Positions 1-57,545 of a stretch of DNA of 57,545 bases are shown one piece after another. The stretch is from Denitromonas halophila (lineage in GTDB: Bacteria > Pseudomonadota > Gammaproteobacteria > Burkholderiales > Rhodocyclaceae). The translations under genes were made by a program, and so were the position numbers. The notes below the pieces were generated by a model that worked only from the letters and a program-made list of their open reading frames with translations, did not search any database and was not told where the DNA came from. The DNA lies in assembly GCF_007625155.1 (NCBI RefSeq), contig NZ_VMNK01000008.1:1-57545 (forward strand), written 5' to 3'. How positions within the stretch are numbered: position 1 is the first letter of the stretch; every line of letters begins with the position of its first letter.

Positions 1-172
1 CAAGATCGAGGACGTGGGCCCGGCGCTCAAGAAGGCCATCGACGCGCAGATGAACGAGGGCAAGACGACCATCATCGAGATCATGTGTACCCGCGAGCTG
101 GGCGATCCGTTCCGACGCGATGCACTGTCCAAGCCGGTGCGTTTCCTTGATAAGTACAAAGACTACGTTTAA
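1..172 (+). CDS. xsc: Sulfoacetaldehyde acetyltransferase, C-terminal end (partial)
   Basis: This is the last 56 codons of an open frame that enters from the left edge and stops with TAA at 170-172. The tail ELGDPFRRDAL followed by a KPVRFLDKYKDYV ending matches the conserved C-terminus of Xsc, the thiamine-diphosphate enzyme that splits sulfoacetaldehyde with phosphate into acetyl phosphate and sulfite. Xsc is the hub of taurine, isethionate and related C2-sulfonate degradation in the cytoplasm. The next genes support this: pta would convert acetyl phosphate to acetyl-CoA, and a TauE/SafE-type permease could export the sulfite. Only the tail is visible, so completeness and active-site residues cannot be judged. 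Confidence 0.85.
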   Translation, partial: KIEDVGPALKKAIDAQMNEGKTTIIEIMCTRELGDPFRRDALSKPVRFLDKYKDYV

Positions 173-236
173 GGGCCGCCCTGACCGTATTTCTCCTCCC
201 GCCTCGCCCCACCCTCGCATAACGGGGTAGAGGCTT

Positions 237-288
237 TGCCGGAACGTCAGCATCTTTCCCCCGATGCATCGTTCCGGCATATTTTTTT
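237..288 (+). terminator. Intrinsic terminator after xsc
   Basis: Perfect 10-bp arms TGCCGGAACG (237-246) and CGTTCCGGCA (270-279) are followed by TA and seven T residues (282-288). An inner GCATC/GATGC pair extends the stem. It sits between xsc and pta, so xsc transcripts probably end or are attenuated here, leaving pta dependent on read-through or its own promoter. Confidence 0.75.
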
Positions 289-336
289 CCGTTGGCTGAC
301 GGGCTCACCCGCCACCCGACACTGGAGCTGATGATC

Positions 337-1350
337 ATGAAAGCACTGAATCGCATCATCGAGCAGGCCCGCAAAGCACCGGGCCGCATCGCCCTCTCCG
401 AAGGCGACGACGCGCGTGTTCTTACCGCCGCCGTCCGCGCCACCCAGCAAGGCATCGCCCGCATCATCCTGGTTGGCAGCCGGGCCAACGCCGAAGCCCT
501 CGCCGCCAAGGAAGGCCTGCCGCTGGACGGCATCGACTTTGTCGATCCGACCGACTCCCCGCTCATGCCCGAACTAACCGACGCCCTGTTCGAACTGCGC
601 CGCCACAAGGGCATGACCCGCGAGCAGGCCGCCGAGCAGGCCGCCCAACCGCTGATCTGCGCCAACTTGCTGGTCAAGGCAGGCCACGCCGATGGCACCG
701 TGTCGGGTGCGGTCCACACCACCGGTGACGTGGTGCGCGCAGCCATCCAGATCCTGGGCGTGAAGCCCGGTTTCAAGCTGATCTCCAGCTTCTTCCTGAT
801 GATGATGTGCGAGCCGTTTCACTCGCTCAAAGGCGGGCTGATCTTTTCGGACTGCGGGCTGGTGGTTGATCCGAACGCGGAAGAGTTGTCGGAAATCGCC
901 ATGGCCGCTGCCGACAGTGCGCGCGACCTGCTGATGGAAGAGCCGCGCGTGGCAATGCTATCGTTCTCCACACGCGGCAGCGCCCGACATGCAGCCGTGG
1001 ACAAGGTGGTCGAGGCCGCACGCCGTGTGAAGGCACAGCGCCCGGGCATGGCAATTGATGAAGACGTGCAGCTCGACGCCGCCATCGTGGCCGAGATTGC
1101 CAACCGCAAGCTGCCGGACTCACAGGTCAAGGGCAACGCCAACGTGCTGATCTTTCCCAATCTCGAAGCCGGTAACATCGGCTACAAGCTGGCCGAACGG
1201 GTCGGCGGCGCGGTGGCCATCGGCCCGCTCATGCAAGGCCTGAGCCTGCCGGCCAACGATTTGTCGCGCGGCTGCAGCGCAGAGGACGTGTTCCATGTGA
1301 TCGCTGTCACTGTGGTGCAAGGCCACAGCGCCGCCGCGGCCAAGGCCTGA
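337..1350 (+). CDS. pta: Phosphate acetyltransferase (Pta, short form)
   Basis: Transfers the acetyl group of acetyl phosphate to CoA, the step after Xsc in sulfonate degradation. The 337-residue product is a single PTA_PTB domain without the N-terminal DRTGG/BioD-like extension of long Pta proteins. Recognisable blocks are GTVSGAVHTTGDVVRA near residue 121, MLSFSTRGSARH near 206, and FPNLEAGNIGYKL near 273, all typical of the family. I chose the ATG at 337 because GGAG at 324-327 is 9 nt upstream. The ATG at 331 is too close to it, and an in-frame TTG at 292 lies just past the terminator. The gene ends 5 nt before the next start, so the two are probably co-transcribed. Confidence 0.9.
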   Translation: MKALNRIIEQARKAPGRIALSEGDDARVLTAAVRATQQGIARIILVGSRANAEALAAKEGLPLDGIDFVDPTDSPLMPELTDALFELRRHKGMTREQAAEQAAQPLICANLLVKAGHADGTVSGAVHTTGDVVRAAIQILGVKPGFKLISSFFLMMMCEPFHSLKGGLIFSDCGLVVDPNAEELSEIAMAAADSARDLLMEEPRVAMLSFSTRGSARHAAVDKVVEAARRVKAQRPGMAIDEDVQLDAAIVAEIANRKLPDSQVKGNANVLIFPNLEAGNIGYKLAERVGGAVAIGPLMQGLSLPANDLSRGCSAEDVFHVIAVTVVQGHSAAAAKA

Positions 1351-1355
1351 CCGGC

Positions 1356-2114
1356 ATGCCCGATCCCGCCCTCATCGCCCTGCTGGCCTTCTTCGCCATC
1401 GGCACCTATTTCCAGACCGTCACCGGTTTTGGACTGGGCATGATCGTGATGGGGGCGGCGAGCGGCTTCGATCTGGCGCCGCTGCCGGTGGTGGCGGCGG
1501 TGGTCAGCCTGATGGCGCTGATCAACAGCGCGATCGCGCTGCGCGGGAATCTGCATCTCATCGACTGGCCGGCGGCCCGCGCGGTGCTGATCGGCGTGGT
1601 GCCGGCGATTGTCGCCGGCGTGCTGCTGCTCGACTATCTCAGCGTGGTCGCGGCCACCGCACTCAAGCTGCTGCTCGGCGTCGTGATCACCTACAGCGGC
1701 ATCGTCTTTGCGCTACGCCCCACCCAGCTGGCCGAACGCTCGCCCAACCGCAGTTTCTTCGTCAGTGGCGTGCTCGCGGGTCTGTTTGGCGGCCTGTTCG
1801 GTATGGCCGGCCCCCCGGTGATCTTCCATTTCTATCGGCAACCGATGGAACTGCCCGCGGTGCGCAGCATGCTGCTGCTGGTGTTCACCTTCACCTCGGC
1901 CAGCCGCACCGTGTTCGTCGGCGCCCAGGGCGGGCTCACCACCGAGGTCTGGCTACTCACCGGTTTCGCCTCCGTGCTGGTTGCTGGGGCTGCCTTTGCC
2001 GGACGACGCTACCCGCCCCCGGTCGCACCGACCACGCTCAGGCGCATCGCCTTCAGCGTGCTGATCCTGATAGGTCTGAGCCTGATCACCTCCGCGGTCA
2101 GCGCCCTTCAGTAA
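1356..2114 (+). CDS. TauE/SafE-family anion permease (candidate sulfite exporter)
   Basis: A 252-residue, almost entirely hydrophobic protein with about eight predicted membrane segments arranged as two similar halves. This is the pattern of the TauE/SafE (DUF81) family. The glycine-rich block GVLAGLFGGLFGMAGPPVI around residues 132-150 is a family hallmark. It follows xsc-pta, and the family is implicated in exporting the sulfite that Xsc releases (TauE in taurine users). Substrate assignment here is by context only. Family membership is firm, but the specific sulfite role is inferred. Confidence 0.8.
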   Translation: MPDPALIALLAFFAIGTYFQTVTGFGLGMIVMGAASGFDLAPLPVVAAVVSLMALINSAIALRGNLHLIDWPAARAVLIGVVPAIVAGVLLLDYLSVVAATALKLLLGVVITYSGIVFALRPTQLAERSPNRSFFVSGVLAGLFGGLFGMAGPPVIFHFYRQPMELPAVRSMLLLVFTFTSASRTVFVGAQGGLTTEVWLLTGFASVLVAGAAFAGRRYPPPVAPTTLRRIAFSVLILIGLSLITSAVSALQ

Positions 2115-2206
2115 ACCGCCACATGCCCGATAACACCGGAAACCAGACGTCGATCTGGGCTTAACCCGAGTTGCGCTCAAGGCGCAGCCCAACGGAGACA
2201 TGCATC

Positions 2207-4087: not shown

Positions 4088-4093
4088 GCACGC

Positions 4094-4109
4094 CGGGGGC
4101 CCGCCCCCG
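4094..4109. terminator. GC-rich hairpin between convergent genes
   Basis: CGGGGG and CCCCCG face each other across a four-base GC-rich loop, between the stop codons of the chemoreceptor and the IclR regulator. It has no T tract on either side. It may help end transcription from both directions, but this is weak evidence. Confidence 0.3.
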
Positions 4110-4111
4110 CG

Positions 4112-4966
4112 TCACGCCTCGCGCGGCAGCAACACATCACGCATGAGTTCGGCAGCGGTGCGCATCTGCGGCACGTTGCCGAGCAAGTCCTCGAGCGACA
4201 CGCGTGCGCTCGGCCCGTGGCAAGCGATGGCCGCCACCAATTTGCCTTCGTGGTCGCGCACCGGCACGGCGACCGCGATCATGCCGCGCACGAATTCCTC
4301 GTTGTCGATGCCGACGCCGCGCTTGGCAATGCGGTCCAGCTCGACCTCCAGCGCGGCCCGGTCAGTGATGGTGCGCGGCGACGAGCGCGGCAGCGGCATG
4401 TGCGCGAGCACCGCCTGCCGCTCAAGCAATGACATCGAGGCCAGAAACAGTTTGCCGCTGGCGGTGCAATGCATGGGCACCCAGGTGCCCGGCTGCACAT
4501 ACATGCGCAGTGGCTCGGCCGTGTCGACCCGCTCGACGTAGAGCACCCGCCCAGCGTCGGGCACGGTGAGGTTGCAGGTCTCGCCCAGGCGCCGCACCAA
4601 CGCGCGCAGCACCGCCCGACACTCCCGGCGCATGTTCGACCCGCGCAAGGTGTTGAGCGCCAGCGACACCGAGCGCGTGCCGGTCACATAGCCGCGATCA
4701 GCCGGCATGTGCAACACATAACCCTGTGCCTCCATCGAATGGAGCAGACGCATCAATGTGCTCTTGGGCACCTGCATCTGAAGCGCCAGTTGCGCCAGCG
4801 TCAGCGGTTGCGGTGAGTGGGTCAGCAACTCCAGCACGGTGAGCGGGCGCAAGCGCCGGATGTCCTCATTGGCGCCCGAGGTGGCCGCGTCTTCCACATC
4901 GTCAAAAACAGGCTCAATCGATGTTGCAGTGCGATTCTGGTTCGTCTCGTCCGGGTTTCGTTTCAT
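4112..4966 (-). CDS. IclR-family transcriptional regulator
   Basis: A 284-residue regulator. It has an N-terminal winged helix (about residues 40-100, with LTLAQLALQMQVPKSTLMRLL) and a C-terminal IclR effector domain (about 110-280). The ATG at 4966 has AAGAGG 6 nt upstream; an in-frame TTG at 4984 lacks a good site. The first 35 residues are polar and probably disordered, which is slightly long for the family. It is transcribed away from the GMC oxidoreductase/TRAP operon and most likely controls it. A palindromic IclR-type operator candidate lies at 5037-5053 between them. The effector is unknown, probably the substrate of the neighbouring oxidoreductase. Confidence 0.88.
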   Translation of the reverse strand: MKRNPDETNQNRTATSIEPVFDDVEDAATSGANEDIRRLRPLTVLELLTHSPQPLTLAQLALQMQVPKSTLMRLLHSMEAQGYVLHMPADRGYVTGTRSVSLALNTLRGSNMRRECRAVLRALVRRLGETCNLTVPDAGRVLYVERVDTAEPLRMYVQPGTWVPMHCTASGKLFLASMSLLERQAVLAHMPLPRSSPRTITDRAALEVELDRIAKRGVGIDNEEFVRGMIAVAVPVRDHEGKLVAAIACHGPSARVSLEDLLGNVPQMRTAAELMRDVLLPREA

Positions 4967-5036
4967 TTCAGGCCTCTTGTGCAAATAGCGCTTGGCTTTT
5001 CATCTCACTGCCACAATAGTGCATTCAAGGATTTAT

Positions 5037-5053
5037 TGGAACGATACGTTTCA
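5037..5053. promoter_or_regulatory. Candidate IclR operator
   Basis: TGGAACGATACGTTTCA is a near-perfect 17-bp palindrome with 7-bp arms (TGGAACG/CGTTTCA, one mismatch) around ATA. It resembles known IclR-family operators of the GGAAACGTTTCC type. It lies between the divergent iclR and GMC genes, 64 bp before the GMC start. Assignment is by position and shape. Confidence 0.5.
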
Positions 5054-5116
5054 TTTATAACTAGATTTTCGGTAGGACACACCGTGTCATCGACCGAACC
5101 CCAGGAGACGAGAAAC

Positions 5117-6715
5117 ATGTCCATCGACGTTGACTACATTGTGGTCGGTGCCGGCTCTGCCGGTTGCGTACTGGCTAATCGCCTGTCGGCCGATCCAGCC
5201 AACCGCGTATTGCTCCTCGAAGCGGGCGGCCCGGACAACAACCCGTGGATTCACATCCCGGTTGGCTACTTCAAGACCATGCACGACCCGAAGTACGATT
5301 GGTGCTACAAGACCGAGGCCGATGCCGGCATCGCCGGGCGCCAGCTGCAGTGGCCGCGCGGCAAGGTATTGGGCGGCTCCAGCTCGCTCAACGGCCTGCT
5401 GTATGTCCGCGGTCAGCACGAAGATTACGACCGCTGGGCCGCGCTGGGCAACGCGGGTTGGAGCTTCGCCGAGGTGCTGCCCTACTTCAAGAAATCTGAA
5501 GACCAGGAGCGCGGAGCGAGCGAGTACCACGGTGTCGGCGGCCCACTGAAGGTCTCTGACCTGCGCCTGCGCCGCCCGATCGCCGATCACTTCATTGCCG
5601 CGGCCAAAGACATCGGCATCCCCTACAACGACGACTACAACGGCGCGGTACAGGAAGGCGTGGGCTACTTTCAGCAGACCGCGCACAAGGGCTTTCGCTG
5701 GAGCACGGCCAAGGGCTTCCTGAAGCCGGCGCGCAGCCGCGACAACCTGATCGTAGAAACCCGCGCGCAGACCACCCGCGTGCTGTTCGAAGGCAAGGTC
5801 GCCGTCGGCGTGGAGTACATGAAGGGCGGCAAGCTGCTGCAAGCCCGCGCCAAGGCCGAAGTCATTCTGGCCTCGGGCGCCATCGGCTCGCCGCAGATTT
5901 TGCAGAACTCGGGCGTCGGCCCGGCCGAGGTCTTGCAAAAAGCCGGCGTCGCGGTGCTTCACGATCTGCCCGGCGTCGGCGAGAACCTGCAAGACCACCT
6001 GCAGGTCCGGCTGGTCCTCAAGACCCGCGAGCGCACGCTCAATGACGAGGTCAACAACCCGATCAACAAGCTGTGGATCGGCATGCAGTACATGCTCAAC
6101 CGCACCGGCCCGCTGACCCTCGCCGCCAGCCAGGTGGCGATCTTCACGCGTTCGGGCCCGGATGTGGATCGCCCGGACATCCAGTTCCACATGCAGCCGC
6201 TCAGTGCCGACAAGCCGGGCGAAGGCGCGCATCCGTTCTCGGCTTTCACCGCCTCGGTCTGCCAGCTGCGCCCGTTCAGCCGCGGCCATGTGCGCATCAC
6301 CAGCGCTGATCCGCTCAAGTATCCGGCGATCCAGCCCAACTACCTGTCAGACGAACGCGACCACCCGGTGGTGATCGGCGGCATCAAGGTGGCGCGGGCG
6401 ATTGCCGATGCGCCCTCGCTCAAGAAACACATCATCGACGAGTTCGTGCCCGGCCGGCAGTTCCAGACCGACGACGAACTGCTCGACGCGGCCCGCCGAT
6501 ACAGCCAGTCCATTTACCACCCGGCCGGCACCTGCAAGATGGGGAATGACCCGATGGCGGTGGTCGACGCACGCCTTAAGGTGCACGGGCTGGGCAATCT
6601 GCGCGTGGTCGATGCCTCGATCATGCCGGAGCTGGTCTCGGGCAACACCAATGCGCCGACGATCATGATCGCTGAAAAGGCAGCCGACATGATCCTGGCC
6701 GACAACACGCGCTGA
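5117..6715 (+). CDS. GMC-family FAD oxidoreductase (choline/alcohol dehydrogenase-like)
   Basis: A 532-residue flavoprotein of the glucose-methanol-choline family, which oxidises a primary alcohol to an aldehyde or acid. The Rossmann motif VVGAGSAGC is at residues 9-17. GMC signature 1 ([14 protein letters not shown]) is near 85 and signature 2 ([15 protein letters not shown]) near 253. The catalytic His is in [10 protein letters not shown] near 466 and the Asn/His region in [16 protein letters not shown] near 508. ATG 5117 has AGGAGA 8 nt upstream. It is followed 71 bp later by a TRAP transporter, so it probably acts on the solute that transporter imports. Many such proteins are annotated choline dehydrogenase (BetA), but no betaine aldehyde dehydrogenase is near, so the substrate is open. 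Confidence 0.85.
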
Positions 6716-6786
6716 ACATCGCGATACCTATAGAACGCTTCACAAGGGCAATCATGCCCGCCCTGCCACCCAGAGGAGACACTCAA

Positions 6787-8013
6787 ATGGCTAACGACAA
6801 CACTCTCGACCGCCGTGGATTCCTGCGCATTGCGAGTCGCTACGGTCTGACGTCAACCGCCTTTGCTGCGGCGACCGTCGCCGGCCCGCTGACACTCAGC
6901 AGCGTCGCCCACGCAGCCTCGAAAAACGCCGATGCACGTGCCGCCAGCACCCCGCTGGTGACGCTCAAGTTTGGCGCATCGGGTTTCAACGAAAACAACC
7001 TGAAGATTCAGGAGTCGGGCCAGCTGTGGTTTGCCCAGCAACTGGAGGAGCGCAGCAACGGCGCGATGAAGATCGAGTTCATTGGCAGCAACGCCATCTG
7101 CAACCAGCTCGACTGCGTCAAGAAAACCCAACAGGGCATCGTGGACATCTACTCGGCCAGCACGCAAAACTCGGCCGGCTCAGCGCCCTACTACAACGTG
7201 CTCGACTTCGCCTACATGTTCCCGTCGCGCGCGGCCCAGCACCACTTCTTCTATCACCCGAAGAGCGAGAAGCTGCTGCGCGAACCCTTGCGCAAGCGGC
7301 ACAACATCCAGTTCCTCTACACCCACTGCGAGCTGCGCGGCATCATGCTGGGCAAAAAGTTCGCCGACAAGCCGCTGGTCACCAGCGTCGATGACCTCGC
7401 CGGCACCAAGAACCGTGTCACCGGCACCCAGCTGGGCCGCATCGCCATGCAGTTGATGAATCTCAACCCGATCCCGCTCGCCTGGGAGGAGACCCTCGAC
7501 GGCCTCAAGCAAGGCCTGATCGACGGCGCAGAAACCTGGATGGGCGCAGCCGCCTACGCCAACATGTCGCCGGTGCTGTCACAAGCGGTGGATCTGAAGT
7601 TCTTCTGCGGTACCGAACACACCGCCATGAACAACAAGACCTTCGAAAAACTGCCCTCCACGCTGCGCGACATCGTGATGGAAACGGCTTACGACGCGCA
7701 GCAATACACCCAGCGCGAACAGGAACGAGCGCTGATCGAAGTCGTCGGCGCGGTGCCCAATCCGGGTCCGAACACCGAATTCGGCAAAAACGGCGTGCGC
7801 GTTGCGACGCTGTCCGACGCCGAAATTCTCAAGGCCGAAAAGATGTGTTCGCCCGAGTACCAACCCAAGCCGTGGGAAGAGTGGCGCGAGCGTCTCAACA
7901 AGATGTCGGGCGGTCAGGATGTGTACAAGGAGATCTTCACCATCGCGCGCGAGATCCCCAAGGACCTGCCGGTTGCCGACGTGAAGCCGCGCCGCTGGTG
8001 GCAGAGCGCCTGA
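6787..8013 (+). CDS. TRAP transporter solute-binding protein (DctP type), Tat-exported
   Basis: A 408-residue periplasmic binding protein of the TRAP DctP family. It captures an organic acid or similar solute and delivers it to the membrane subunits encoded next. The N-terminus carries a twin-arginine signal (DRRGFLR at residues 8-14, then a hydrophobic stretch ending VAHAA), so it is probably exported folded. ATG 6787 is preceded by GAGGAGAC; the in-frame upstream ATG at 6754 would spoil the signal peptide. Residues 60-350 show the DctP fold, with conserved blocks such as [13 protein letters not shown] near 214. A hairpin follows the gene, before dctQ, and may keep its message more abundant than that of the membrane subunits. 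Confidence 0.9.
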
Positions 8014-8047
8014 TCGGCGCCTGACACTCCGCGCATCCCATCGCCCA

Positions 8048-8067
8048 GCCCCGGCGCAGACCGGGGC
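8048..8067 (+). promoter_or_regulatory. Intercistronic hairpin between TRAP binding protein and DctQ
   Basis: GCCCCGG (8048-8054) and CCGGGGC (8061-8067) form a perfect 7-bp stem with a CGCAGA loop and no T tract. Such hairpins after binding-protein genes commonly protect the upstream mRNA from decay, which would raise DctP relative to DctQM. The function is inferred. Confidence 0.45.
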
Positions 8068-8099
8068 GGGCACACCCCCCTGACTTCGGAGGCCACCTC

Positions 8100-8633
8100 A
8101 TGTCTTTCCTGATGGCAATACTTCGGTGGCTGGACCGCCACGCCGAGCGCACGCTCATACTGATCGCCTACTCAAGCATGGCTTTGATCATTGTGTACGC
8201 GGTCTTCGAGCGCTACGTGTTCAGCACCCAGATTCCCTGGAGCTCCTCGATCCCGATCTACCTGTTTTTGTGGGTCACCTGGGTCGGCTGCGCCTACAAC
8301 GTCAACCAGCGCACCCACCTCGTGTTCAACGAGTTTCGCCTGCGCATGTCCTACGGATGGCAGTTCGCCATGATGTGGCTGGACGCCATCCTGTGGATCA
8401 GCTTCGGCTCCATGGTGGCCTGGTTCACCATCGAGCAGACCCAGTTGGCCTACATGAACTTCGCCATCGTGCAGGGCACCGACAACATCATGCAGTGGTG
8501 GTTCTATCTCGCTACGCCGATCGGCTGGGGCCTGCTGATGTTCCGCGCGCTGCAGAACCTGATTCAAGACATCGGCCGTTATCGCCGCGGCGATCCCTTC
8601 CTGGTCGACATCCAGACCATCGGCGGAGACTGA
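8100..8633 (+). CDS. TRAP transporter small membrane subunit (DctQ type)
   Basis: A 177-residue integral membrane protein with four predicted membrane segments (about residues 18-38, 50-70, 88-110, 132-152). It shows the DctQ-typical pattern, including a conserved tryptophan-rich loop around FLWVTWVGCAYNVNQRTH near 55. With DctM it forms the sodium-driven translocation complex of the TRAP system. CGGAGG lies just upstream of ATG 8100. It ends 4 nt before dctM, so the two are translationally close. Confidence 0.88.
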   Translation: MSFLMAILRWLDRHAERTLILIAYSSMALIIVYAVFERYVFSTQIPWSSSIPIYLFLWVTWVGCAYNVNQRTHLVFNEFRLRMSYGWQFAMMWLDAILWISFGSMVAWFTIEQTQLAYMNFAIVQGTDNIMQWWFYLATPIGWGLLMFRALQNLIQDIGRYRRGDPFLVDIQTIGGD

Positions 8634-8637
8634 GACC

Positions 8638-9924
8638 ATGGACCAAACACTGCTCATCACACTCGTCACGATTGGCGTCGGCATCCTGTTCCTGGTCGGC
8701 GTACCGATCTTTCTGGTCATCGGCTTCTGGGTGACCGGGGTATCGATCGTCATCGACTTCACGCTCGCCAACATCGGCGTCACGCTGTTCGAAGGCCTCA
8801 ACTTCTTCGGCCTGCTGTCGCTGCCGCTGTTCATCCTCACCGGTGACCTGATCGCCGCCGCCGGCATCGCCACCCGCCTGGCCAACTTTGCCCACGCCTG
8901 CCTGAGCTGGATGCGTGGCGGCCTCGGCCTGGCAACGATTGGCTCCTGCGGCCTGTTCGCCGCCATCTCGGGCTCGAACTCGGCAACGACGGCCACCATC
9001 GGCGGCATCATGCATCCGCTGCTGGTCAAGGATGGTTACGACACCCGCTTCGCCGCGGCCACGGCTGCCGCCGGCGGCACGGTCGGCATCATCATCCCGC
9101 CATCGATCATCTTCATCGTCTATGGCTTCCTGATGAATTTGTCGATTTCCGACCTGTTCGTCGCCGGCATCCTGCCGGGCGCGCTGATGGTGATCGCCAT
9201 GCAGCTGGTGTGCTGGTGGATGTGCCGCAAGCACGGCTGGGGCTCGGTCACGCCGCTCGACATGGGCCGTGTGCTGCGCACCGCGCGCAGCGCCTACCTC
9301 GGCTTCTTCGCCATCTTCATCGTCATCTTCGGCATCTACTCGGGCATCTTCTCGCCCACCGAAGCGGCGGCCATCACGGTGGGTTTCTGCCTCATCGCCG
9401 GCCTGCTGATCACGCGCGAAATCAAGTGGAAGGCCCTGCCCGACATCCTGCTGCGCTCCGGTCAGCTCACCGGCATGCTGGCGCCGATGATCGCCATCTC
9501 CATCGTCATGCAACAGGTGTTCGCCCTGCTCGGCGCAGCCGAGACGGTGCAGGCCTTCGTGGCCTGGTTCGGTGACGGCGAGATCGTCGTGCTGCTGGTG
9601 TGCATGGCCATCGTGCTCGCCGCCGGCTGCATTCTGGAAAGCCTGCCAGTCACCGTCATCTTCGCCCCCATCCTGGCGCCCATCGCGGTGGCCACGGGGG
9701 TGGATCCGGTGCATTTTTCGGTGATCTTCCTGGTCGGCGCGGCTATCGGCTTCATCACCCCGCCCTTCGGCCTCAACCTGTTCGTGGCCAGCGGCGTCAC
9801 CGGCATCCCCTACGCCAAACTGGTGAAGTTCGCGGTGATGTACATGATCGGTCTGATCATCTCCTGGCTGATCATCGCCTTCATCCCGTGGCTGTCGCTC
9901 GGCTTGATACCGGCGCCGGGCTGA
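8638..9924 (+). CDS. TRAP transporter large permease subunit (DctM type)
   Basis: A 428-residue permease with 11-12 predicted membrane helices. The family blocks SGSNSATTATIGGIMHPLL near residue 111 and GGTVGIIIPPSIIFIVYG near 144 are clear. It provides the ion-coupled channel for the solute held by the upstream binding protein, at the inner membrane. It closes the GMC-dctP-dctQ-dctM operon and is followed by a long palindrome at 9932-9968. Length and motifs are typical, with no sign of damage. Confidence 0.92.
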   Translation: MDQTLLITLVTIGVGILFLVGVPIFLVIGFWVTGVSIVIDFTLANIGVTLFEGLNFFGLLSLPLFILTGDLIAAAGIATRLANFAHACLSWMRGGLGLATIGSCGLFAAISGSNSATTATIGGIMHPLLVKDGYDTRFAAATAAAGGTVGIIIPPSIIFIVYGFLMNLSISDLFVAGILPGALMVIAMQLVCWWMCRKHGWGSVTPLDMGRVLRTARSAYLGFFAIFIVIFGIYSGIFSPTEAAAITVGFCLIAGLLITREIKWKALPDILLRSGQLTGMLAPMIAISIVMQQVFALLGAAETVQAFVAWFGDGEIVVLLVCMAIVLAAGCILESLPVTVIFAPILAPIAVATGVDPVHFSVIFLVGAAIGFITPPFGLNLFVASGVTGIPYAKLVKFAVMYMIGLIISWLIIAFIPWLSLGLIPAPG

Positions 9925-9931
9925 CCCCCCT

Positions 9932-9968
9932 GCCGATGCCCTGACGCGTTCGCGTTCAGGGCATCGGC
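9932..9968 (+). terminator. Long hairpin closing the TRAP operon
   Basis: GCCGATGCCCTGA (9932-9944) is perfectly repeated in inverse at 9956-9968, with CGCG/CGCG able to extend the stem. No T tract follows, so it may be a processing or Rho-assisted end rather than a classical intrinsic terminator. The rest of the gap to 10219 holds no recognisable gene. Confidence 0.5.
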
Positions 9969-10219
9969 GATGGCACCCACCTACCGCACCACCTTCTTCT
10001 GCTGCTCTCATGGCGGCAGTTGCCAGCGACATCCCGCCCCGTAGCGTCCCTACCATCCAACGCAGGACCGACCAGCACCGCGGCAAGGCAAGAAATCTGG
10101 TCGAGCGCTTCTTCAACCAACCCAAGCATCTTCGTCGCCTCACCACACACCATGACAAGCGGGCTTCTCGGCTCAACGCTTTGTCACATGCACCTGCATC
10201 GGGCTACGGTGAACACGCA

Positions 10220-50346: not shown

Positions 50347-51216
50347 TCAGCGCAGCAACAAGGTTGGCACGCAGGTCGAGGTGAGCATGTCGGTGGTCTT
50401 GCTGCCAAACAACAGGCTGCGCAGCGGGGAGTGACTGTAGGCGCCCATCACCAGCATGTCGAAACCGCCGGTGGCCAGCGCGTCGGCGACGACCTCTTTC
50501 GGGCTGCCGGCGCGCGTGCTGGCGGTGGCTTCGATGCCGGCGGCGACCAGGCTGACGACCGCGGCATCCAGCGACTTCTGCTCGGCCGCGCCGGGCTCAC
50601 CGGCGATCAGCAATTGCAGCTTCAGGCCGCGCAGCAGCGGGCTACCGGCCAGCATGTCGACGCCCTTGCGGGTCACGCTACTGCCATCAAAGGCAAACAG
50701 CACCGACCTCGGCTCCCGATACGCTTCGGTCACCACCAGTACCGGCCGGGTGGCTGAGCGCACCACCCACTCCAGGTGCTGGCCCAGGCCGGTCTTGGCA
50801 TCGCGCCTGGGGTGCCCGTTGCGACCAATGATCAGCAGCCGGCTGCCTTCTTGCTGCTCGGCTAGGGTCTCTTCGATGTCGCCATGGCGCAAACGGCTGT
50901 CGACGGTCGTCGCGCCACCTTGCTCGGCGCGTTCGCGCAGGCCGGAGAGCAACACGCGGCCTTGCTCGCGCGCGCTGCGGGTGCGCTCGGCATCCTCCTG
51001 GGTCAGCCGGTCCATCAGCTTCTCCTGGGCGTCGAGGCCAATGGCGCCACTGTGGTCCTGATTGTCGGACAGCTCGACATGGCGCTCGAGCACATGCAGC
51101 AGCTCCACCGGCGCATCGAGGCGGCGAGCCGCCCAGGTCGCGTAGTCGGTCACCACATCGGCCATCGGCGTGGTATCCACGCAGGCGAGAATCTTGCGAT
51201 CGATATTCATGTGCAT
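50347..51216 (-). CDS. Tandem universal stress protein (UspA x2)
   Basis: A 289-residue protein made of two Usp domains (about residues 1-150 and 155-289). Nucleotide-binding glycines are visible in IIGRNGHPRRD near 133 and MGAYSHSPLRSLLFGS near 257. Tandem Usp proteins bind ATP and aid stress survival. It starts 6 bp after the sulP stop in the same direction, so the transporter and the stress protein form an operon. A terminator lies downstream on the plus-strand side. Confidence 0.88.
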   Translation of the reverse strand: MHMNIDRKILACVDTTPMADVVTDYATWAARRLDAPVELLHVLERHVELSDNQDHSGAIGLDAQEKLMDRLTQEDAERTRSAREQGRVLLSGLRERAEQGGATTVDSRLRHGDIEETLAEQQEGSRLLIIGRNGHPRRDAKTGLGQHLEWVVRSATRPVLVVTEAYREPRSVLFAFDGSSVTRKGVDMLAGSPLLRGLKLQLLIAGEPGAAEQKSLDAAVVSLVAAGIEATASTRAGSPKEVVADALATGGFDMLVMGAYSHSPLRSLLFGSKTTDMLTSTCVPTLLLR

Positions 51217-51221
51217 TCTCC

Positions 51222-52703
51222 TCAGTGGCCCAGCAGCACGTCGTCGGCGCCGTCTTTGTCATGCACGGCAAACTTGTCCACCATGGTGGCGCTCGCTTCA
51301 TTCAGGCCGATGACCTCGACCTCGGTGCCTTCGCGGCGGAACTTGAGCACCACCTTGTCCAGCGCGCTGATCGCGGTGATGTCCCAGAAGTGGGCGCGGC
51401 TGACATCGATGCGCACCGTGTCGAGCACCTCCTTGTAGTCAAAGGCGTTGGCGAAGCGCTCCGCCGAGGCGAAAAACACCTGGCCACTGACCTGGTAGCT
51501 GCGGCTGCGGCCATCGTCCTCGGTGCGCGAGCCGATGCGCAGGATCTGGCCAACCTTGTGGGCAAAGAAGAAGCCCGACAGCAGCACCCCGGTCAGCACG
51601 CCCTTGGCCAGGTCGTGGGTGGCCACGGTCACCACCACCGTGGCAAACATCACCACCGAAGAGCTCTTCGGATGCTCGCGCAGGTTGGTGATGGAGCCCC
51701 AGTTGAAGGTACCGATCGACACCATGATCATCACCGCCACCAGCGCCGCCATCGGGATCTGCTTGACCCAGTCGCCCAGGAAGACCACCAGGATCAGCAG
51801 CACCACCCCGGCCACCAGCGTCGACAGCCGGCCACGGCCGCCCGATTTCACGTTGATCACCGACTGGCCGATCATGGCGCAGCCCGCCATGCCGCCGATG
51901 AAACCGGTGGCGATGTTGGCGATGCCCTGGCCGACGCATTCCTGGCTCTTGTCGCTCTTGGTGTCGGTCAGGTCGTCAACAATGGTGGCGGTCATCAGCG
52001 ATTCGAGCAGACCGACCACCATCAGCGTCAGCGAGTACGGCAGGATGATCTGCAGCGTCTCGAGGTTGAACGGCACGTTCGGCATCAGGAAGGACGGCAG
52101 GCTGTCGGGCAGCTCGCCCATGTCGCCCACCGTGCGGATGTCGAGACCCAGCGCGATCGACAGCGCGGTGAGCGACACAATGGTCACCAGCGGCGAGGGC
52201 ACCGCGCGGGTGATGTACGGGAAACCATAGATGATGGCCAGCCCGGCCGCCGTCATGGCATAGACATGCCAGGTCACATCAATCAGCTCGGGCAGCTGCG
52301 CCAAGAAGATCAGGATCGCCAACGCATTGACGAAGCCGGTGACCACCGAGCGCGACACGAAGCGCATCAGCTGGCCGAGCTTCAGCCAGCCGGCAAAGAT
52401 CTGCAGCACCCCGGTCAGTACCGTGGCGGCCAGCAGGTAGTCGAGGCCGTGCGTTTTCACCAGGGTCACGATGACCAGGGCCATGGCGCCGGTGGCGGCA
52501 GAGATCATGCCCGGCCGGCCGCCGAAGAAGGCGGTCAGCGTGGCGATCGAGAAGGAGGCATACAAGCCCACCTTGGGGTCCACACCCGCAATGATGGAAA
52601 AGGCGATCGCCTCGGGAATCAAGGCCAACGCGACCACAAGACCTGCGAGCAGATCGTTGCGGACGTTCGAAAGCCAGTCCTGCTGGAGTCTGTGTAGGGA
52701 CAT
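51222..52703 (-). CDS. SulP/SLC26-family anion transporter with STAS domain
   Basis: A 493-residue transporter with about 12 membrane segments (residues 20-390). SulP signatures include [20 protein letters not shown] near 28 and the [20 protein letters not shown] region near 278. A C-terminal STAS domain follows (about 405-485) with the Ser/Thr site in [11 protein letters not shown]. SulP proteins carry sulfate, bicarbonate or dicarboxylates; the presence of sulfonate genes elsewhere suggests sulfate, but this is only context. ATG 52703 starts the real domain; the frame is open to 52757 but lacks a ribosome site. Coupled to uspA. Confidence 0.9.
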
Positions 52704-53243
52704 AGTTAGAGGTCTGTCGACCGCGATGGCCGAGTAACAAGAAAATGGAGAACACACGACGCCCGCCGGTACACCGAGCGAAAACGGCCAGTCAGTTGCA
52801 TGCCAGCATCATCGACGCGATGGCAGCGCAAGCCTTCAGGTCAAACGGCGTCAGACGTGGATCAAGGAGGTGTTACAGCGCAGAAGTAGCCACGCGGCAA
52901 GGCGGCGCCACGAGAGTTGACGGGCTGAGCCCCATGCACGGCAAAGCCACGGAGGCGGATGCATTGCAGTGCAATTGAGCGGCGCGCGGCGACTACCTTC
53001 ATCGCCGCATTGTGCATTGCACAACAGCGCCGCGTCAAGAAAGGCACCGACGCCCACTCGCTTCACCCACATCTGCCAAAGCCGATTCCCGCCAAACGCC
53101 GCCTACCGGATGCCACCACGCCAACACCGGACGACGTGTTTGGCGACACACTCGCCCCAAGTAGAACGCTCTCTCGCCCCTGAAAGTCGACTGGCCACTC
53201 GACCTTCGACCTATCCATGAGTCTCCCGCATCCGCTGATGCAG
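52704..53243. other. Gene-free region with two short palindromes
   Basis: No credible ORF lies here. Two palindromes stand out: ATTGCAGTGCAAT (52963-52975) and TTGTGCATTGCACAA (53010-53024), each perfect around a single central base and both containing TGCA. They are about 47 bp centre to centre, suggesting operators for an unidentified regulator, but no promoter or gene can be matched to them. Confidence 0.4.
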
Positions 53244-53488: not shown

Positions 53489-53860
53489 TCACACGCCTTC
53501 GCTCAAGCGCCAGGCGCCCGCGGTGAGCGGCACGAAAGCTTCAACGGCTGCCGTGGCGATGATGTGGGTGGTGCCCTGTTCGGGGTCGTGCACATTCAGC
53601 CCACCCTTCACGGCTTTTACTTCGGCGTAGCCGCGCGGCAGGGTGTCGGCGACCGCATCGGTGTCGACCTTGTCGGGGTCTTGCACGCCGATGGTCACTT
53701 GCACGCGCATGTCGCGGTGGTCGATGTCCAGGCTGCGGAACAGCAGGATGGACGAGTGGTGCAGTGCATCCTGCACGGCGCGGCAGGCGGCCTTGGTGTA
53801 GTCCTCGCCGTAGAGGTCGTTGCCGGTGCCCATTTCGAGGATGATGCGTTTTTCAGTCAT
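53489..53860 (-). CDS. Lin0512-family protein, second copy
   Basis: A 123-residue protein of the uncharacterised Lin0512 family (start KRIILEMGTGNDLYGEDYTKAACRAV, conserved Gly- and Thr-rich segment and GGLNVHDPEQGTTHIIATAAV near the end). It overlaps the upstream Lin0512 gene by 8 nt, so the two are co-translated, perhaps as subunits of a heteromer. It is the last gene of the CobS/CobT-like operon. No biochemical function is known to me. Confidence 0.8.
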   Translation of the reverse strand: MTEKRIILEMGTGNDLYGEDYTKAACRAVQDALHHSSILLFRSLDIDHRDMRVQVTIGVQDPDKVDTDAVADTLPRGYAEVKAVKGGLNVHDPEQGTTHIIATAAVEAFVPLTAGAWRLSEGV

Positions 53861-54206
53861 GGGCGGCCTCCATGTCGAAGGAAACGGTGATGGCGGCGTT
53901 GGCGATGACGCTGATACTGTCGCCGCTGGGCTTGGGTACGTCGAGCCCGCCTTCGATCACGCGAACCGTGACCTGCCCGTACGGAAACACCTTGATCAGC
54001 TCGGCTTCATCGACCAGATCGGGGCGCTGAACGGCAACGACGGCGTCGATGACCATCGCGGTACGGGGGAAGCCGAAGGCATCGGCGACGTTGAGCGAGT
54101 GATGCCAGAGCGCGTCGCGGATCGCGCGTGCGCCGGCCTGAGTGTAGTTGCGGCTGCGGATCGAGGTCCCCATGCCGAACTGCACCACCATTTTTTTCAG
54201 GGCCAT
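53853..54206 (-). CDS. Lin0512-family protein, first copy
   Basis: A 117-residue relative of the next gene: KKMVVQFGMGTSIRSRNYTQ at the start, the same length and the same layout, with VRVIEGGLDVPKPSGDSISVIANAAITVS near the end, in pieces. Sequence identity between the two copies is modest, consistent with an old duplication. It lies 3 bp after the cupin gene and overlaps the second Lin0512 gene. Family function unknown. Confidence 0.8.
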   Translation of the reverse strand: MALKKMVVQFGMGTSIRSRNYTQAGARAIRDALWHHSLNVADAFGFPRTAMVIDAVVAVQRPDLVDEAELIKVFPYGQVTVRVIEGGLDVPKPSGDSISVIANAAITVSFDMEAAHD

Positions 54207-54209
54207 GAT

Positions 54210-54584
54210 TTAGTCCTCGGTGGGGGTGTAGCTGCGGATGACGTAGTGTTTGGTGGTGGTTTCGATCACGTCCCAGTAGCCGCGAAAGCCATTCGGGATC
54301 ATGAAGGCGTCACCGGCCATGAAGGTCTTGGCGGTGCCGTCGTCGGCGATCAGGCGGCAGTGGCCGGCGAGGATGACGCAGAACTCGTCGCGATCGGTGA
54401 AGGCGTGCCAGCGGCCGGGGGTACTGGTCCAGGTGCCGGCAATGAGCGCACCGTCGGTGCTTTCGAAGTGCTGCTGGTTGCTGTGCTGCGGGTCGCCTTC
54501 AACAACGCGATCGGGCAAATCAGCCAGTCGGCTGTCGACGCGCTCGGCGCCGCTCTCAGCAAAATTGATCACCGGGTTTGGCAT
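54210..54584 (-). CDS. Cupin protein (EutQ/DUF861-like)
   Basis: A 124-residue cupin. The core is in GRWHAFTDRDEFCVILAGHC near residue 58 and GDAFMIPNGFRGYWDVIE near 92, like DUF861/EutQ-type cupins that bind small acids or metals. ATG 54584 has GGAAAG upstream. A start at 54614 would overlap the cobT-like stop as TGATG and is also plausible. It is embedded between the chelatase-like genes and the Lin0512 pair, so it probably belongs to the same pathway. Confidence 0.78.
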   Translation of the reverse strand: MPNPVINFAESGAERVDSRLADLPDRVVEGDPQHSNQQHFESTDGALIAGTWTSTPGRWHAFTDRDEFCVILAGHCRLIADDGTAKTFMAGDAFMIPNGFRGYWDVIETTTKHYVIRSYTPTED

Positions 54585-54613
54585 GGGGCTTTCCGTCAAT
54601 ATTGGGGCCGGCA

Positions 54614-56353
54614 TCAGCGCCGGTGGCGTCCGCCAATGAGCTGGACGATGTCGTAGAACAGTTCGTTGTCGAGCGCCTGGCTCATGTCGGTGGCGAGGCA
54701 ACGGCGGTAGAAGGGGCTCAGGTCGAGGCCGGCGCCAAGGCCGAGGATCTCCACCGCGCCCTGCGCCTCGCGCCGCGCCACCACATCCTTGAGGTGGTTG
54801 TCGAGGTAGAAGTCGTCGTTGGCGCGGCCGGTGGCGCTGTCGGCGGGGCAGCCATCGGAGATCACGATCAGGATCCGCCGTTCTTCGCTGCGCGCCAGCA
54901 GGCGGTTGCAGGCCCAGTCCACCGCTTCGCCGTCGATGCCTTCGCGAAACAGGTCGGGCTTGAGCAAGGCCATCATGTCGATGCGGGCGCGGCGCCAGTT
55001 GCGGTCGGCCTCTTTGAACACCATGTGAGTGACTTCGTTGAGCCGCCCCGGATGCGCCGGCTTGCCATGCGCCATCCATTCCTTGACCGCCCGGCCGCCG
55101 TTCCAGCCGCCGGTGGTGAAGCCGAGCATCTCGGTGGTGACGCCCACCATCTCAAGCGCGCGGATGAGCAGGTCGACCATCATCGCCACCGGCTCAGAAT
55201 GCGTCTTCATCGAGCCGGAGCAATCGACCAGGAAGGTGACCACGCAATCGGCTTGCGGCTTGTACTGGTCTTGCCGGAACAGGCGGCGTTCGGCCGGCGA
55301 GCTGATGAGCTGCGACAAGCGGGCGCCGTCGATACGCCCTTCTTCCTGCCCGAACAGCCAGCCGTCGCGCTGCGGCTGGGCCAGGATGGCGCCGAGCATG
55401 CGCGCCAGGCGCGGCAGGTTGATGCCCTGCTCGGTGATGCGCTTGTCGACCCGCTCGCGGTACTCGCGCAGCAGCGCCTTGCGCACCAGCGTGCCGGCCG
55501 ACACCTCGGTGTCGAAGCGCGTGGTGTACACATGGTAGGCCTGTCTGGCGTCTTCAAACACCTTGCTGTCGCCGGTGGTGGCGGTGGCGATGGTGTTGCC
55601 GTCACCTTCATCCTGGTCGAAGTCGAGCAGCAGCGCGAAGCGGCTCTTGGCTTCGTCTTCTTCCTCGGGGTCGCGCTCGGCGTCGTCGCCACCGGCGTCG
55701 GCCCTGTCGGAGCGCATGGTCTCATCGACCACCCGCGCCACTTCCAGCGCATGCTTGGCAAACTCGGCCTGATTGTCGCGGTGTCGGCGCATGCCGGCCA
55801 GCGGCGTGCCAAGCACACCCGCCAGCGACACGCGCGTGCCTTCGATGTAGTCCTCGGTCTCTTCGAGCACCTGTCGCGCCATCAGGCGCGACCAGCTCAT
55901 CTGCGCCACGGTGTAGAGCAAGATGCCGAAGCGCCCTTCGGTCAGCCCCTCGCGGTAGAAGGTGCGCGACCAGTTTTCAAACCGGTGGTGCAGGTTGTCG
56001 GCCATGCCGGGCATGTCGATCGGCACATGGGTTTCAACGCGCAACTGCTCCAGCCACTCGAACACCAGCCGCTGCACCCCACCCGTCGGGCAGAGGCTGC
56101 GGTGCAATTCGGGGTCGGAATGCAACAGCCGCAAGGCCATGCCGTCGGCCGCGGCGCGGCAGTCTTCAAACGCGTCCTGATCGGAGTCGATGCGCAGATG
56201 CGGCGCATGCATGGGCAGCGGCCGCGCGCCCTGGTGCAGGCGCCGCCCCCGGTAATGCAGTTGGGCATCGCCGGTCAGCGCGCGCAAGGTAGCGGCGCAG
56301 AGCTCTTCGACTTTCTGCTGCCGCTTGGCCCGCTGCTGCGCGGTCGCTTGCAT
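54614..56353 (-). CDS. CobT-like VWA protein (cobaltochelatase subunit-type)
   Basis: A 579-residue protein with an N-terminal helical region, an acidic linker (DDAERDPEEEDEAKS near 228) and a C-terminal von Willebrand A domain. Its MIDAS motif DCSGSMKTHS is near residue 379. This is the layout of CobT, the regulatory subunit of aerobic cobaltochelatase, and of related metal- or cofactor-inserting VWA partners of MoxR-type ATPases. Its start overlaps the stop of the AAA+ gene by one base (TAATG). The N-terminal half looks like CobT_C-free homologues, so a chelatase role beyond cobalamin is possible. Confidence 0.85.
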   Translation of the reverse strand: MQATAQQRAKRQQKVEELCAATLRALTGDAQLHYRGRRLHQGARPLPMHAPHLRIDSDQDAFEDCRAAADGMALRLLHSDPELHRSLCPTGGVQRLVFEWLEQLRVETHVPIDMPGMADNLHHRFENWSRTFYREGLTEGRFGILLYTVAQMSWSRLMARQVLEETEDYIEGTRVSLAGVLGTPLAGMRRHRDNQAEFAKHALEVARVVDETMRSDRADAGGDDAERDPEEEDEAKSRFALLLDFDQDEGDGNTIATATTGDSKVFEDARQAYHVYTTRFDTEVSAGTLVRKALLREYRERVDKRITEQGINLPRLARMLGAILAQPQRDGWLFGQEEGRIDGARLSQLISSPAERRLFRQDQYKPQADCVVTFLVDCSGSMKTHSEPVAMMVDLLIRALEMVGVTTEMLGFTTGGWNGGRAVKEWMAHGKPAHPGRLNEVTHMVFKEADRNWRRARIDMMALLKPDLFREGIDGEAVDWACNRLLARSEERRILIVISDGCPADSATGRANDDFYLDNHLKDVVARREAQGAVEILGLGAGLDLSPFYRRCLATDMSQALDNELFYDIVQLIGGRHRR

Positions 56354-57342
56354 TACGACTGCGCCTCGCGCATCCACGACTCGTCCAGCTCTTCGCCAAA
56401 GCAGCGCTGGTAATACTCGGCCACGATCGGGCGCTCGGCTTCATCGCACTTGTTTAGGAAGGACAGGCGGAAGGCCAGCGGCGGATTGCGGAATATCTCG
56501 CAGTTCTCGGCCCAGGTGATCACCGTGCGCGGCGACATCAGCGTGGACAGATCGCCCGCAGCAAAGCCTTTGCGAGTGAGGTCGGCCACCTGCACCATCT
56601 GCGCGATCAGCTTGCGGCCCTTGTCGTAGTTCTTGGCCGGCACGCGGGCCAGCACGATGGCGACCTCTTCGTCATGCGGCAGGTAGTTGAGCGTGGCAAC
56701 GATGTTCCAGCGGTCGATCTGCGCATGGTTGAGCACTTGCGTGCCGTGGTACATGCCCGACAGATTGCCCAGGCCAACCGTGTTGGACGTGGCGAACAGG
56801 CGGAAGTACGGGTGCGGGCGAATCACGCGGTTCTGGTCGAGCAGAGTGAACTTGCCGTCGCGCTCGAGAATGCGCTGGATGACGAACATCACGTCCGGCC
56901 GGCCGGCATCGTATTCGTCAAAGATCATCGCCACCGGGCGTTGCAGCGCCCAGGGCACGATGCCTTCCTGAAACTCGGTTACCTGCAGGCCGTCGCGCAC
57001 GACAATGGTGTCCTTGCCAACCAGATCGAGCCGGCTGATGTGGCCGTCGAGGTTCACGCGCACGCAAGGCCAGTTGAGCCGCGCGGCGACCTGCTCGATA
57101 TGCGTGGATTTGCCGGTGCCGTGCAGGCCTTGCACCATCACCCGGCGGTCGCGGGTGAAGCCGGCCAGAATCGCCAGCGTCACATCGGGGTTGAAACGAT
57201 AGGCGTCGTCGACTTCCGGCACATGGTCGTCGCGCTCGCTGAACGCCGGCACCATCAGGTCGGAATCGATACCAAACACGCTGCGCACGGACACTTGCTT
57301 GTCCGGCGCGGTGATCACATTGTCTGCCACGGGCTTCTCCAT
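56353..57342 (-). CDS. CobS-like AAA+ ATPase
   Basis: A 329-residue AAA+ ATPase of the CobS/MoxR group. Walker A is GLHGTGKST near residue 72, Walker B is MIFDEYDAG near 139, and the sensor region is LFATSNTVG near 182. CobS and CobT form the ATPase ring that drives CobN, the cobalt-inserting subunit. No CobN is in the window, so this pair may serve a different metalloprotein or cofactor. ATG 57342 is chosen over 57366; neither has a strong ribosome site. It follows a probable IclR gene by 69 bp. Confidence 0.88.
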
Positions 57343-57411
57343 GTCGGGTTGCGCGCCGCGGGTCATTGCCCACGGCGTCGGTTTTCACCCAAACAGGAGA
57401 CCTCCCCCCGC

Positions 57412-57545
57412 TCAGGCGCTGTGCTGCAATTCGTTCTCTGCCTGCGTCTCGATGTCGGCGAGGGCCTTGGCGGCTTTCTTGAGCGCCGGCAGTAGCGTGA
57501 GCACCTTGTCGTGGTTGAGCCGCATGATCGGCGCCTGAATGGCGA
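57412..57545 (-). CDS. Probable IclR-family regulator, C-terminal end (partial)
   Basis: The last 44 codons of a frame entering from the right edge, stop TGA at 57412-57414. The sequence AIQAPIMRLNHDKV followed by LLPALKKAAKALADIE matches the final beta strand and helix of IclR effector domains, as in the intact IclR at 4112. It is in the same direction and 69 bp from the CobS-like gene, so it may lead and control the operon. Only the tail is visible. Confidence 0.55.
   Translation of the reverse strand, partial: AIQAPIMRLNHDKVLTLLPALKKAAKALADIETQAENELQHSA

Follow-up and report, generated by a model that had tools for sequence, protein, structure and literature searches.

A CobS/CobT-like gene pair of Denitromonas halophila as a probable ATP-driven helper of an Xsc-type sulfonate-splitting enzyme

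Which process is served by CobS- and CobT-like genes that stand in an operon without cobN? The window analysed here is a stretch of 57,545 nucleotides from Denitromonas halophila. It is contig C29 of a 34-contig, 4.39-Mb genome, and the contig ends at position 57545. An operon on the minus strand next to this end holds the 3' end of an IclR-type regulator gene followed by genes for an AAA+ protein resembling CobS, a VWA protein resembling CobT, a cupin and two members of the Lin0512 family (Table 1). The pair (hereafter CobST) is probably an ATP-driven helper of an Xsc-type sulfonate-splitting enzyme, judging from gene neighbourhoods and phylogeny.

The operon and its sulfonate neighbourhood

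The original prediction described five packed minus-strand genes with overlaps of 1 and 8 bases and gaps of 3-29 bp, and our coordinates agree with it: CobS and CobT overlap by one base, 29 bp separate CobT from the cupin and 3 bp the cupin from the first Lin0512 gene, and the two Lin0512 genes overlap by 8 bases. For CobT a GTG at 56377 is a possible alternative to the ATG at 56353. The predicted roles also held, with Pfam matches to all five proteins. The Pfam search with the very short regulator piece of 43 codons returned no match and its identity was assigned by synteny with the longer IclR frames in L021-L024. Next downstream on the same strand lie genes for a SulP-type permease and a universal stress protein (50347-52757, minus strand).

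Table 1. Positions and family evidence of the features of the window
Feature	Position	Strand	Evidence
IclR-type regulator, 3' end, cut by contig end	57412..57545 (frame 57412-57543)	-	last 43 codons and stop
CobS-like MoxR-type AAA+ ATPase	56353..57366	-	PF12556 62.2 bits, AAA_5 41.7; Walker A 79-88, Walker B D150-E151
CobT-like VWA protein	54614..56353	-	PF11775 158.8 bits, PF06213 80.6; MIDAS residues
EutQ-like cupin (Cupin_3)	54210..54584	-	PF05899 74.3 bits
Lin0512 protein 1	53853..54206	-	PF09585 100.9 bits (cut-off 23.4); TIGR02058 48.2, below cut-off 56.85
Lin0512 protein 2	53489..53860	-	PF09585 119.7 bits (cut-off 23.4); TIGR02058 59.9, cut-off 56.85
xsc (sulfoacetaldehyde acetyltransferase), 3' end	2..172	+	TIGR03457 positions 529-579, E 1.7e-19
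Phosphate acetyltransferase (pta)	292..1350	+	TIGR00651 339.6 bits, cut-off 311.2
TauE/SafE sulfite exporter family protein	1356..2114	+	PF01925 77.1 bits, cut-off 32.6

In relatives the neighbours of IclR-CobST are genes for taurine and isethionate dissimilation, namely xsc, pta, tauE and often tauXY, so the catabolic setting proposed originally was borne out. Xsc is a thiamine-diphosphate (ThDP) enzyme. The window's own contig carries the 3' end of xsc with pta and tauE at the end opposite CobST, a detail that had been overlooked, and another contig of the genome (C26) starts with thiS, thiG, mocR, tauX, tauY and a TRAP transporter. Linkage of xsc, pta and an exporter gene to CobST was thus found both in relatives and in this genome. 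Xsc did not exceed its cut-off anywhere in the window's assembly and is represented by the fragment at 2-172 (it matches the L023 Xsc at 54 of 56 residues), as expected from a collapsed repeat. In the Halomonas loci L028, L031 and L032 CobST lies between two xsc copies, and both ends of the short contigs L027, L029 and L034 lie within xsc; similarly, the window begins within the 3' end of xsc and stops in IclR. The first part of the window (1-9924, plus strand) holds the xsc 3' end, pta, tauE and genes for a chemoreceptor, a GMC oxidoreductase and a TRAP transporter, with an IclR gene at 4112-4984 on the minus strand, and is probably an isethionate cluster. The isethionate dehydrogenase IseJ is of the GMC type.

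The same association was observed in a wider set of loci. A search for CobT homologues gave 22 loci, 19 of which contain xsc sequence, while the other three (L021, L022 and L030) stop at contig ends. Among the best seven plasmid matches (46-57% identity, 95-96% coverage) xsc was present in all five that were examined, i.e. all except H2 and H5. In Azoarcus sp. L1K30 (L024) IclR is divergent from xsc, followed by yeiH, thiS, thiG, a MocR regulator gene, tauX and tauY. The Caballeronia plasmid pNK83 carries pta, xsc, two IclR genes, CobS-CobT, a CobW-type GTPase, an amidohydrolase, a symporter and TauY- and TauX-like genes, and its annotation names the pair an AAA family ATPase and a cobalt chelatase. 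In one further genome (G429; L110, 8135-14444) CobST adjoins genes for a sulfatase, a sulfatase-modifying (FGE) protein and a GMC oxidoreductase.

The original prediction treated the linkage to Lin0512 and the cupin as a defining feature, and this was not supported. Lin0512 genes were found beside 18 of 40 xsc-type CobST loci (the Zoogloeaceae/Halomonas group and L020) and the cupin at 7 of 40, both by tblastn, which may miss weak copies. Lin0512 also occurs without CobST, in Azospirillum and in L019, which was read as a piece. We therefore rejected Lin0512 and the cupin as the core of the system; they are lineage-specific accessory parts. Both Lin0512 proteins of the window exceed the Pfam cut-off. 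On the 19-kb piece of L019 (G258) a tandem Lin0512 pair (9378-10108) lies next to an aminotransferase-like frame, and the piece gave no CobST or xsc match. The literature matches to the name Lin0512 concern other subjects, judging by their titles. In Caballeronia, CobT is accompanied by a CobW-type GTPase, which was likewise rejected as a metal-delivery partner: it is not tied to CobST, because a relative (36-37% identity) together with an amidohydrolase adjoins TauXY in G409 and G508, two genomes in which CobT was not detected.

Zoogloeaceae bacterium G21618-S1 and Denitromonas ohlonensis have CobT proteins that share 98% and 96% identity, respectively, with the window CobT. By Pfam the CobS carries the CobS_N and AAA_5 domains and the CobT the CobT_C and CobT domains. 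Measured against NCBIfam, CobS scored 556.6 bits with TIGR01650 and missed the cut-off of 558.55 by about 2 bits, and CobT with 302.5 bits fell far under the TIGR01651 cut-off of 759.05. Walker A and Walker B are conserved across 38 xsc-type CobS sequences, and the MIDAS residues D385, S387, S389, T422 and D508 (numbering of the 587-residue version) show at least 95% conservation in 40 xsc-type CobT sequences; this comparison leaves out L042, L119 and L120. With its ATPase and MIDAS motifs intact, the pair has the sequence motifs of a MoxR AAA+/VWA pair. The structural model of CobT is moderate (pLDDT 65.7) and its best fold matches are NorD VWA domains bound to NorQ, followed by the MIDAS domain of human MDN1. 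Among solved structures, sequence comparison places the true cobaltochelatase subunits CobS and CobT nearest.

Association of the pair with one Xsc clade

We compared the occurrence of Xsc and CobT in 349 Burkholderiales genomes, where Xsc exceeded the cut-off in 41 genomes and CobT_C in 15 (the two surveys are taken as the same 349 genomes, from the identical request and genome handles). The top 12 Xsc scores, between 1021 and 1111 bits, are set apart from the rest (at most 980 bits). In 10 of these 12 genomes CobT lies on the same contig as xsc, within 3.1 kb in eight cases and at 21 and 28 kb in two. None of the other 29 Xsc genomes has an xsc-type CobT; G355 alone among them has a CobT at all, of the canonical kind and on another contig. 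The remaining four CobT genomes are the window's own with its xsc fragment and G440, G526 and G390, for which no Xsc was detected at E 1e-150. G526 and G390 (L119/L120) carry a more distant CobS/CobT-like pair (CobS 34-37% and CobT 29-32% identity over part of the length) and show CobN-family matches elsewhere in the genome.

Two genomes with a top Xsc, G413 and G599, gave no CobT match even at E 1e-5. At their loci (L111 and L114, respectively) CobST has been lost from an otherwise kept xsc-pta-yeiH-tauY-TRAP cluster, and in L114 an unrelated frame lies between pta and yeiH, the place that CobST takes in L105. IclR, MocR and TauX were also not found near xsc in both genomes and therefore the pathway there may have changed. 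As these two genomes and the sister-clade Xsc do without the pair, Xsc chemistry in itself does not require CobST. Of 398 Pseudomonadota genomes sampled, 26 have Xsc, four of which had been counted before. Twenty of the 22 new genomes, which belong to other classes and are presumably Alphaproteobacteria, have one CobT each (336-393 bits), encoded either on a different contig from xsc or over 100 kb away from it. In the other two, G785 and G846, only 2.4 kb separate xsc from a divergent CobT of 141-143 bits.

The phylogenies gave the same picture. In an Xsc tree of 70 rows the CobST-linked sequences account for 31 of the 33 rows of one clade (support 100/100), the two unlinked rows being G413 and G599, and for none of the 37 rows outside it. 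This corresponds to 2 label changes compared to a mean of 23.3 for shuffled labels. The tree was built from the matches listed, without the lowest-scoring Xsc genomes of the Burkholderiales survey, and the labels were assigned by us from gene positions. In the CobT tree a single clade (100/100) unites the 40 xsc-type rows and sets them apart from 22 others. Here the program flagged long branches and uneven composition, L042 (two frames) was left out, and the window, L021, L022 and L030 were counted as xsc-type though contig ends leave no adjacent xsc on the piece.

At 22 positions of the Xsc alignment a state is found in at least 95% of 30 clade-A rows and in less than 10% of 18 sister rows (the comparison omits L035, L042 and a truncated Xsc of L028). 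Between its central and its C-terminal ThDP domain, clade-A Xsc also carries an insert of 9 residues; more distant Xsc partly fill the same gap, so the insert alone is not diagnostic. Pairwise distances over 24 loci were correlated between Xsc and CobT (r 0.61), Xsc and CobS (0.61) and CobS and CobT (0.86), and none of 2000 permutations reached values as high, with kinship uncorrected.

In two lineages, with 4 of the 60 loci searched, the taurine/CobST cluster also contains thiazole-synthesis genes. These are thiS-thiG in L024 (4324-5595) and on contig C26 of the window's own genome (L171, 162-1202) and a different thiG (39-40% identity) in L104 (2405-3184) and L106 (16655-17437), both with a thiO-like frame and L106 also with a thiS-like frame, named by eye. 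Their presence would fit a high demand for thiamine diphosphate.

Candidate clients and the cobaltochelatase question

Judged by sequence, the tie of the pair to sulfonate catabolism is strong. We give about even weight to the reading that CobST is a MoxR-type AAA+/VWA machine for sulfonate dissimilation rather than cobalamin synthesis and that the linked Xsc clade is its most likely client. Two points make Xsc the best candidate: the pair follows a single Xsc clade, and genes for the thiazole of the Xsc cofactor occur in the cluster in two lineages. The enzyme served, which the original prediction left unnamed, is then probably Xsc or another enzyme of taurine and isethionate dissimilation. 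Several points weigh against this reading: G413, G599 and the sister-clade Xsc do without the pair, the closest solved structures by sequence belong to cobaltochelatase, linkage and co-inheritance could reflect the transfer of a catabolic island, and TauY follows CobST almost as well as Xsc does.

The last point leads to an alternative in which machine and pathway are the same and the client is the taurine dehydrogenase TauXY, made up of the FAD oxidoreductase TauY and the SnoaL-like TauX. A TauY orthologue occurs in 13 of 14 CobST genomes compared to 5 of 31 others at 60% identity or more (four more at 40-42%), and the CobT-less G413 and G599 also have no TauX near xsc. However, G409 and G508 have a complete TauXY and G364 has TauX with a TauY split into two frames, all three with CobT undetected, whereas G143 has CobST but no TauY at E <= 1e-100. 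We counted TauXY without detected CobST (G409, G508) and CobST without a TauY orthologue (G143) in favour of Xsc and consider TauXY an unlikely client, albeit the main rival to Xsc.

Alternatively, the pair could be a passenger in a mobile sulfonate island, with a role unrelated to Xsc or TauXY such as stress repair. In favour of a mobile island, the cluster is carried by a large plasmid or second replicon in all five plasmid matches examined, and the Xsc tree places Halomonadaceae sequences among those of Burkholderiales. A mere passenger is nevertheless rather improbable, since the pair keeps strictly to one Xsc clade across several families and gene arrangements and its motifs are conserved. 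Even less probable is a client elsewhere in the pathway, for example the sulfite dehydrogenase SoeABC or a sulfite exporter: SoeA/SoeB-like genes were found near CobST in L015, L020, L051 and L055, but neither SoeA nor SoeB was matched on the other loci searched, which span 4 to 57 kb each and leave room for such genes elsewhere.

We then return to the cobaltochelatase. The absence of CobN from the operon had been part of the original prediction, and it extends to the whole 34-contig draft genome, in which PF02514 has no match and CobT_C matches a single protein, the window CobT. The prediction had also asked whether genomes with such pairs lack CobN, and here the answer is divided: among 12 xsc-type genomes tested (G785 and G846 left out) six have no PF02514 match, the window's and five others, and six have one. 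In G336 the matching protein is BchH, beside genes that look photosynthetic. In G404 and G429 CobN adjoins a partner matching TIGR02442. In G447 and G538 a CobN-like protein below the TIGR02257 cut-off and above the NCBI NF004644 CobN cut-off adjoins a TonB receptor-like frame; the sixth is a PF02514 protein in G143. According to the accessible part of PMC12583661, HmuS is a CobN homologue that removes iron from heme, and the setting in G447 and G538 may resemble that of HmuS. Compared with a CobNST complex the window's genome lacks the CobN partner, CobS narrowly misses its cut-off and CobT does not reach its own. We rejected a cobaltochelatase role for the window CobST since the genome has no CobN, like five other xsc-type genomes, and in view of the settings of the PF02514 proteins in G336, G404, G429, G447 and G538. 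That the pair are true cobaltochelatase subunits with CobN encoded elsewhere would agree with a CobS just below its cut-off and with the six genomes that have a PF02514 protein, but it is contradicted for the window's genome, unless the draft assembly lost cobN, and is hardly credible given the six genomes without PF02514, the settings of BchH, of the CobN beside TIGR02442 partners and of the protein in G447 and G538 (though above NF004644), and a CobT far under its cut-off and outside the other CobT clade.

Proposed mechanism and comparison with known systems

By analogy with CbbQO and NorQD the pair should remodel a protein of its own pathway. We infer that Xsc would be this client, that CobST would interact with it and that a chemical step of the following kind would result. 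Tentatively, and with less confidence than in the client, we suggest that in this clade CobS-CobT acts as an activase that is driven by ATP and dedicated to the ThDP enzyme Xsc, a chelatase motor put to a different use, loading Mg-ThDP or clearing dead-end adducts. To dock on Xsc, the VWA domain of CobT would use its MIDAS metal, which would meet an acidic residue at the Xsc surface. A CobS ring hydrolysing ATP would act through CobT to open the Xsc oligomer, for which the action of CbbQO on inhibited Rubisco and of NorQD on NO reductase may serve as precedents. Mg-thiamine diphosphate could then be loaded or a dead-end adduct released. The IclR regulator would make the supply of the pair dependent on a pathway metabolite, and the cupin and Lin0512 would be accessory parts in some lineages. 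The insertion of a metal or cofactor by CobST is possible. An AlphaFold model of Xsc from 8 close sequences (pLDDT 44.5) was too poor for mapping a docking site.

Standard models call the pair cobaltochelatase subunits and thereby point to vitamin B12, an annotation that is misleading if the pair serves Xsc. If the proposal is true, it names a component of taurine and isethionate degradation in bacteria that had been overlooked, and it adds a new class to the clients of AAA+/VWA activases. No AAA+/VWA pair is known to have a ThDP enzyme as client. What is new is a pair of cobaltochelatase kinship with a different, probably ThDP-dependent client. One Xsc clade with the pair, sister clades without it and its loss in G413 and G599 amount to a natural experiment.

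In the openly published journal literature, as far as its text is accessible, we recognised no link of CobST to xsc, taurine or sulfonate catabolism. The accessible text of PMC6829993 names tauX and xsc with no occurrence of 'cobalt' or 'aaa', and that of PMC4334477, an annotation of Ruegeria pomeroyi, contains 'sulfoacetaldehyde acetyltransferase' and 'cobalt chelatase' once each. The TauR-regulated taurine cluster, described with the roles of its products, comprises tauXY, xsc, pta, tauE and tauZ (PMC5320631, accessible part), and in many loci these enzymes and transporters are the neighbours of CobST. In contrast to these loci, no AAA+/VWA pair is named for the TauR-regulated cluster and 'cobalt' and 'chelatase' do not occur in the main text, as accessible (PMC5320631).

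The pair shares with aerobic cobaltochelatase CobN-CobS-CobT the homology of CobS and CobT, the nearest structures by sequence and the adjacency of cobS and cobT. It differs in a genome without CobN, a CobT score of 302.5 against a cut-off of 759, a separate CobT clade and sulfonate neighbours. NorQD, which inserts iron into NO reductase, is similar in that the CobT model best matches the NorD VWA domain with NorQ; it is thought to twist its VWA protein and thereby open the client for iron (accessible parts of PMC13036017 and PMC9976466), whereas no metalloenzyme client is evident for CobST here. Unlike the Rubisco activase CbbQO, the pair described here would have a thiamine-diphosphate enzyme as its client. 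Both systems combine a MoxR-type AAA+ protein with a MIDAS-bearing VWA partner near the gene of a carbon-metabolism enzyme, and in CbbQO the MIDAS contacts an acidic residue of the inhibited Rubisco (PMC4660213, accessible part).
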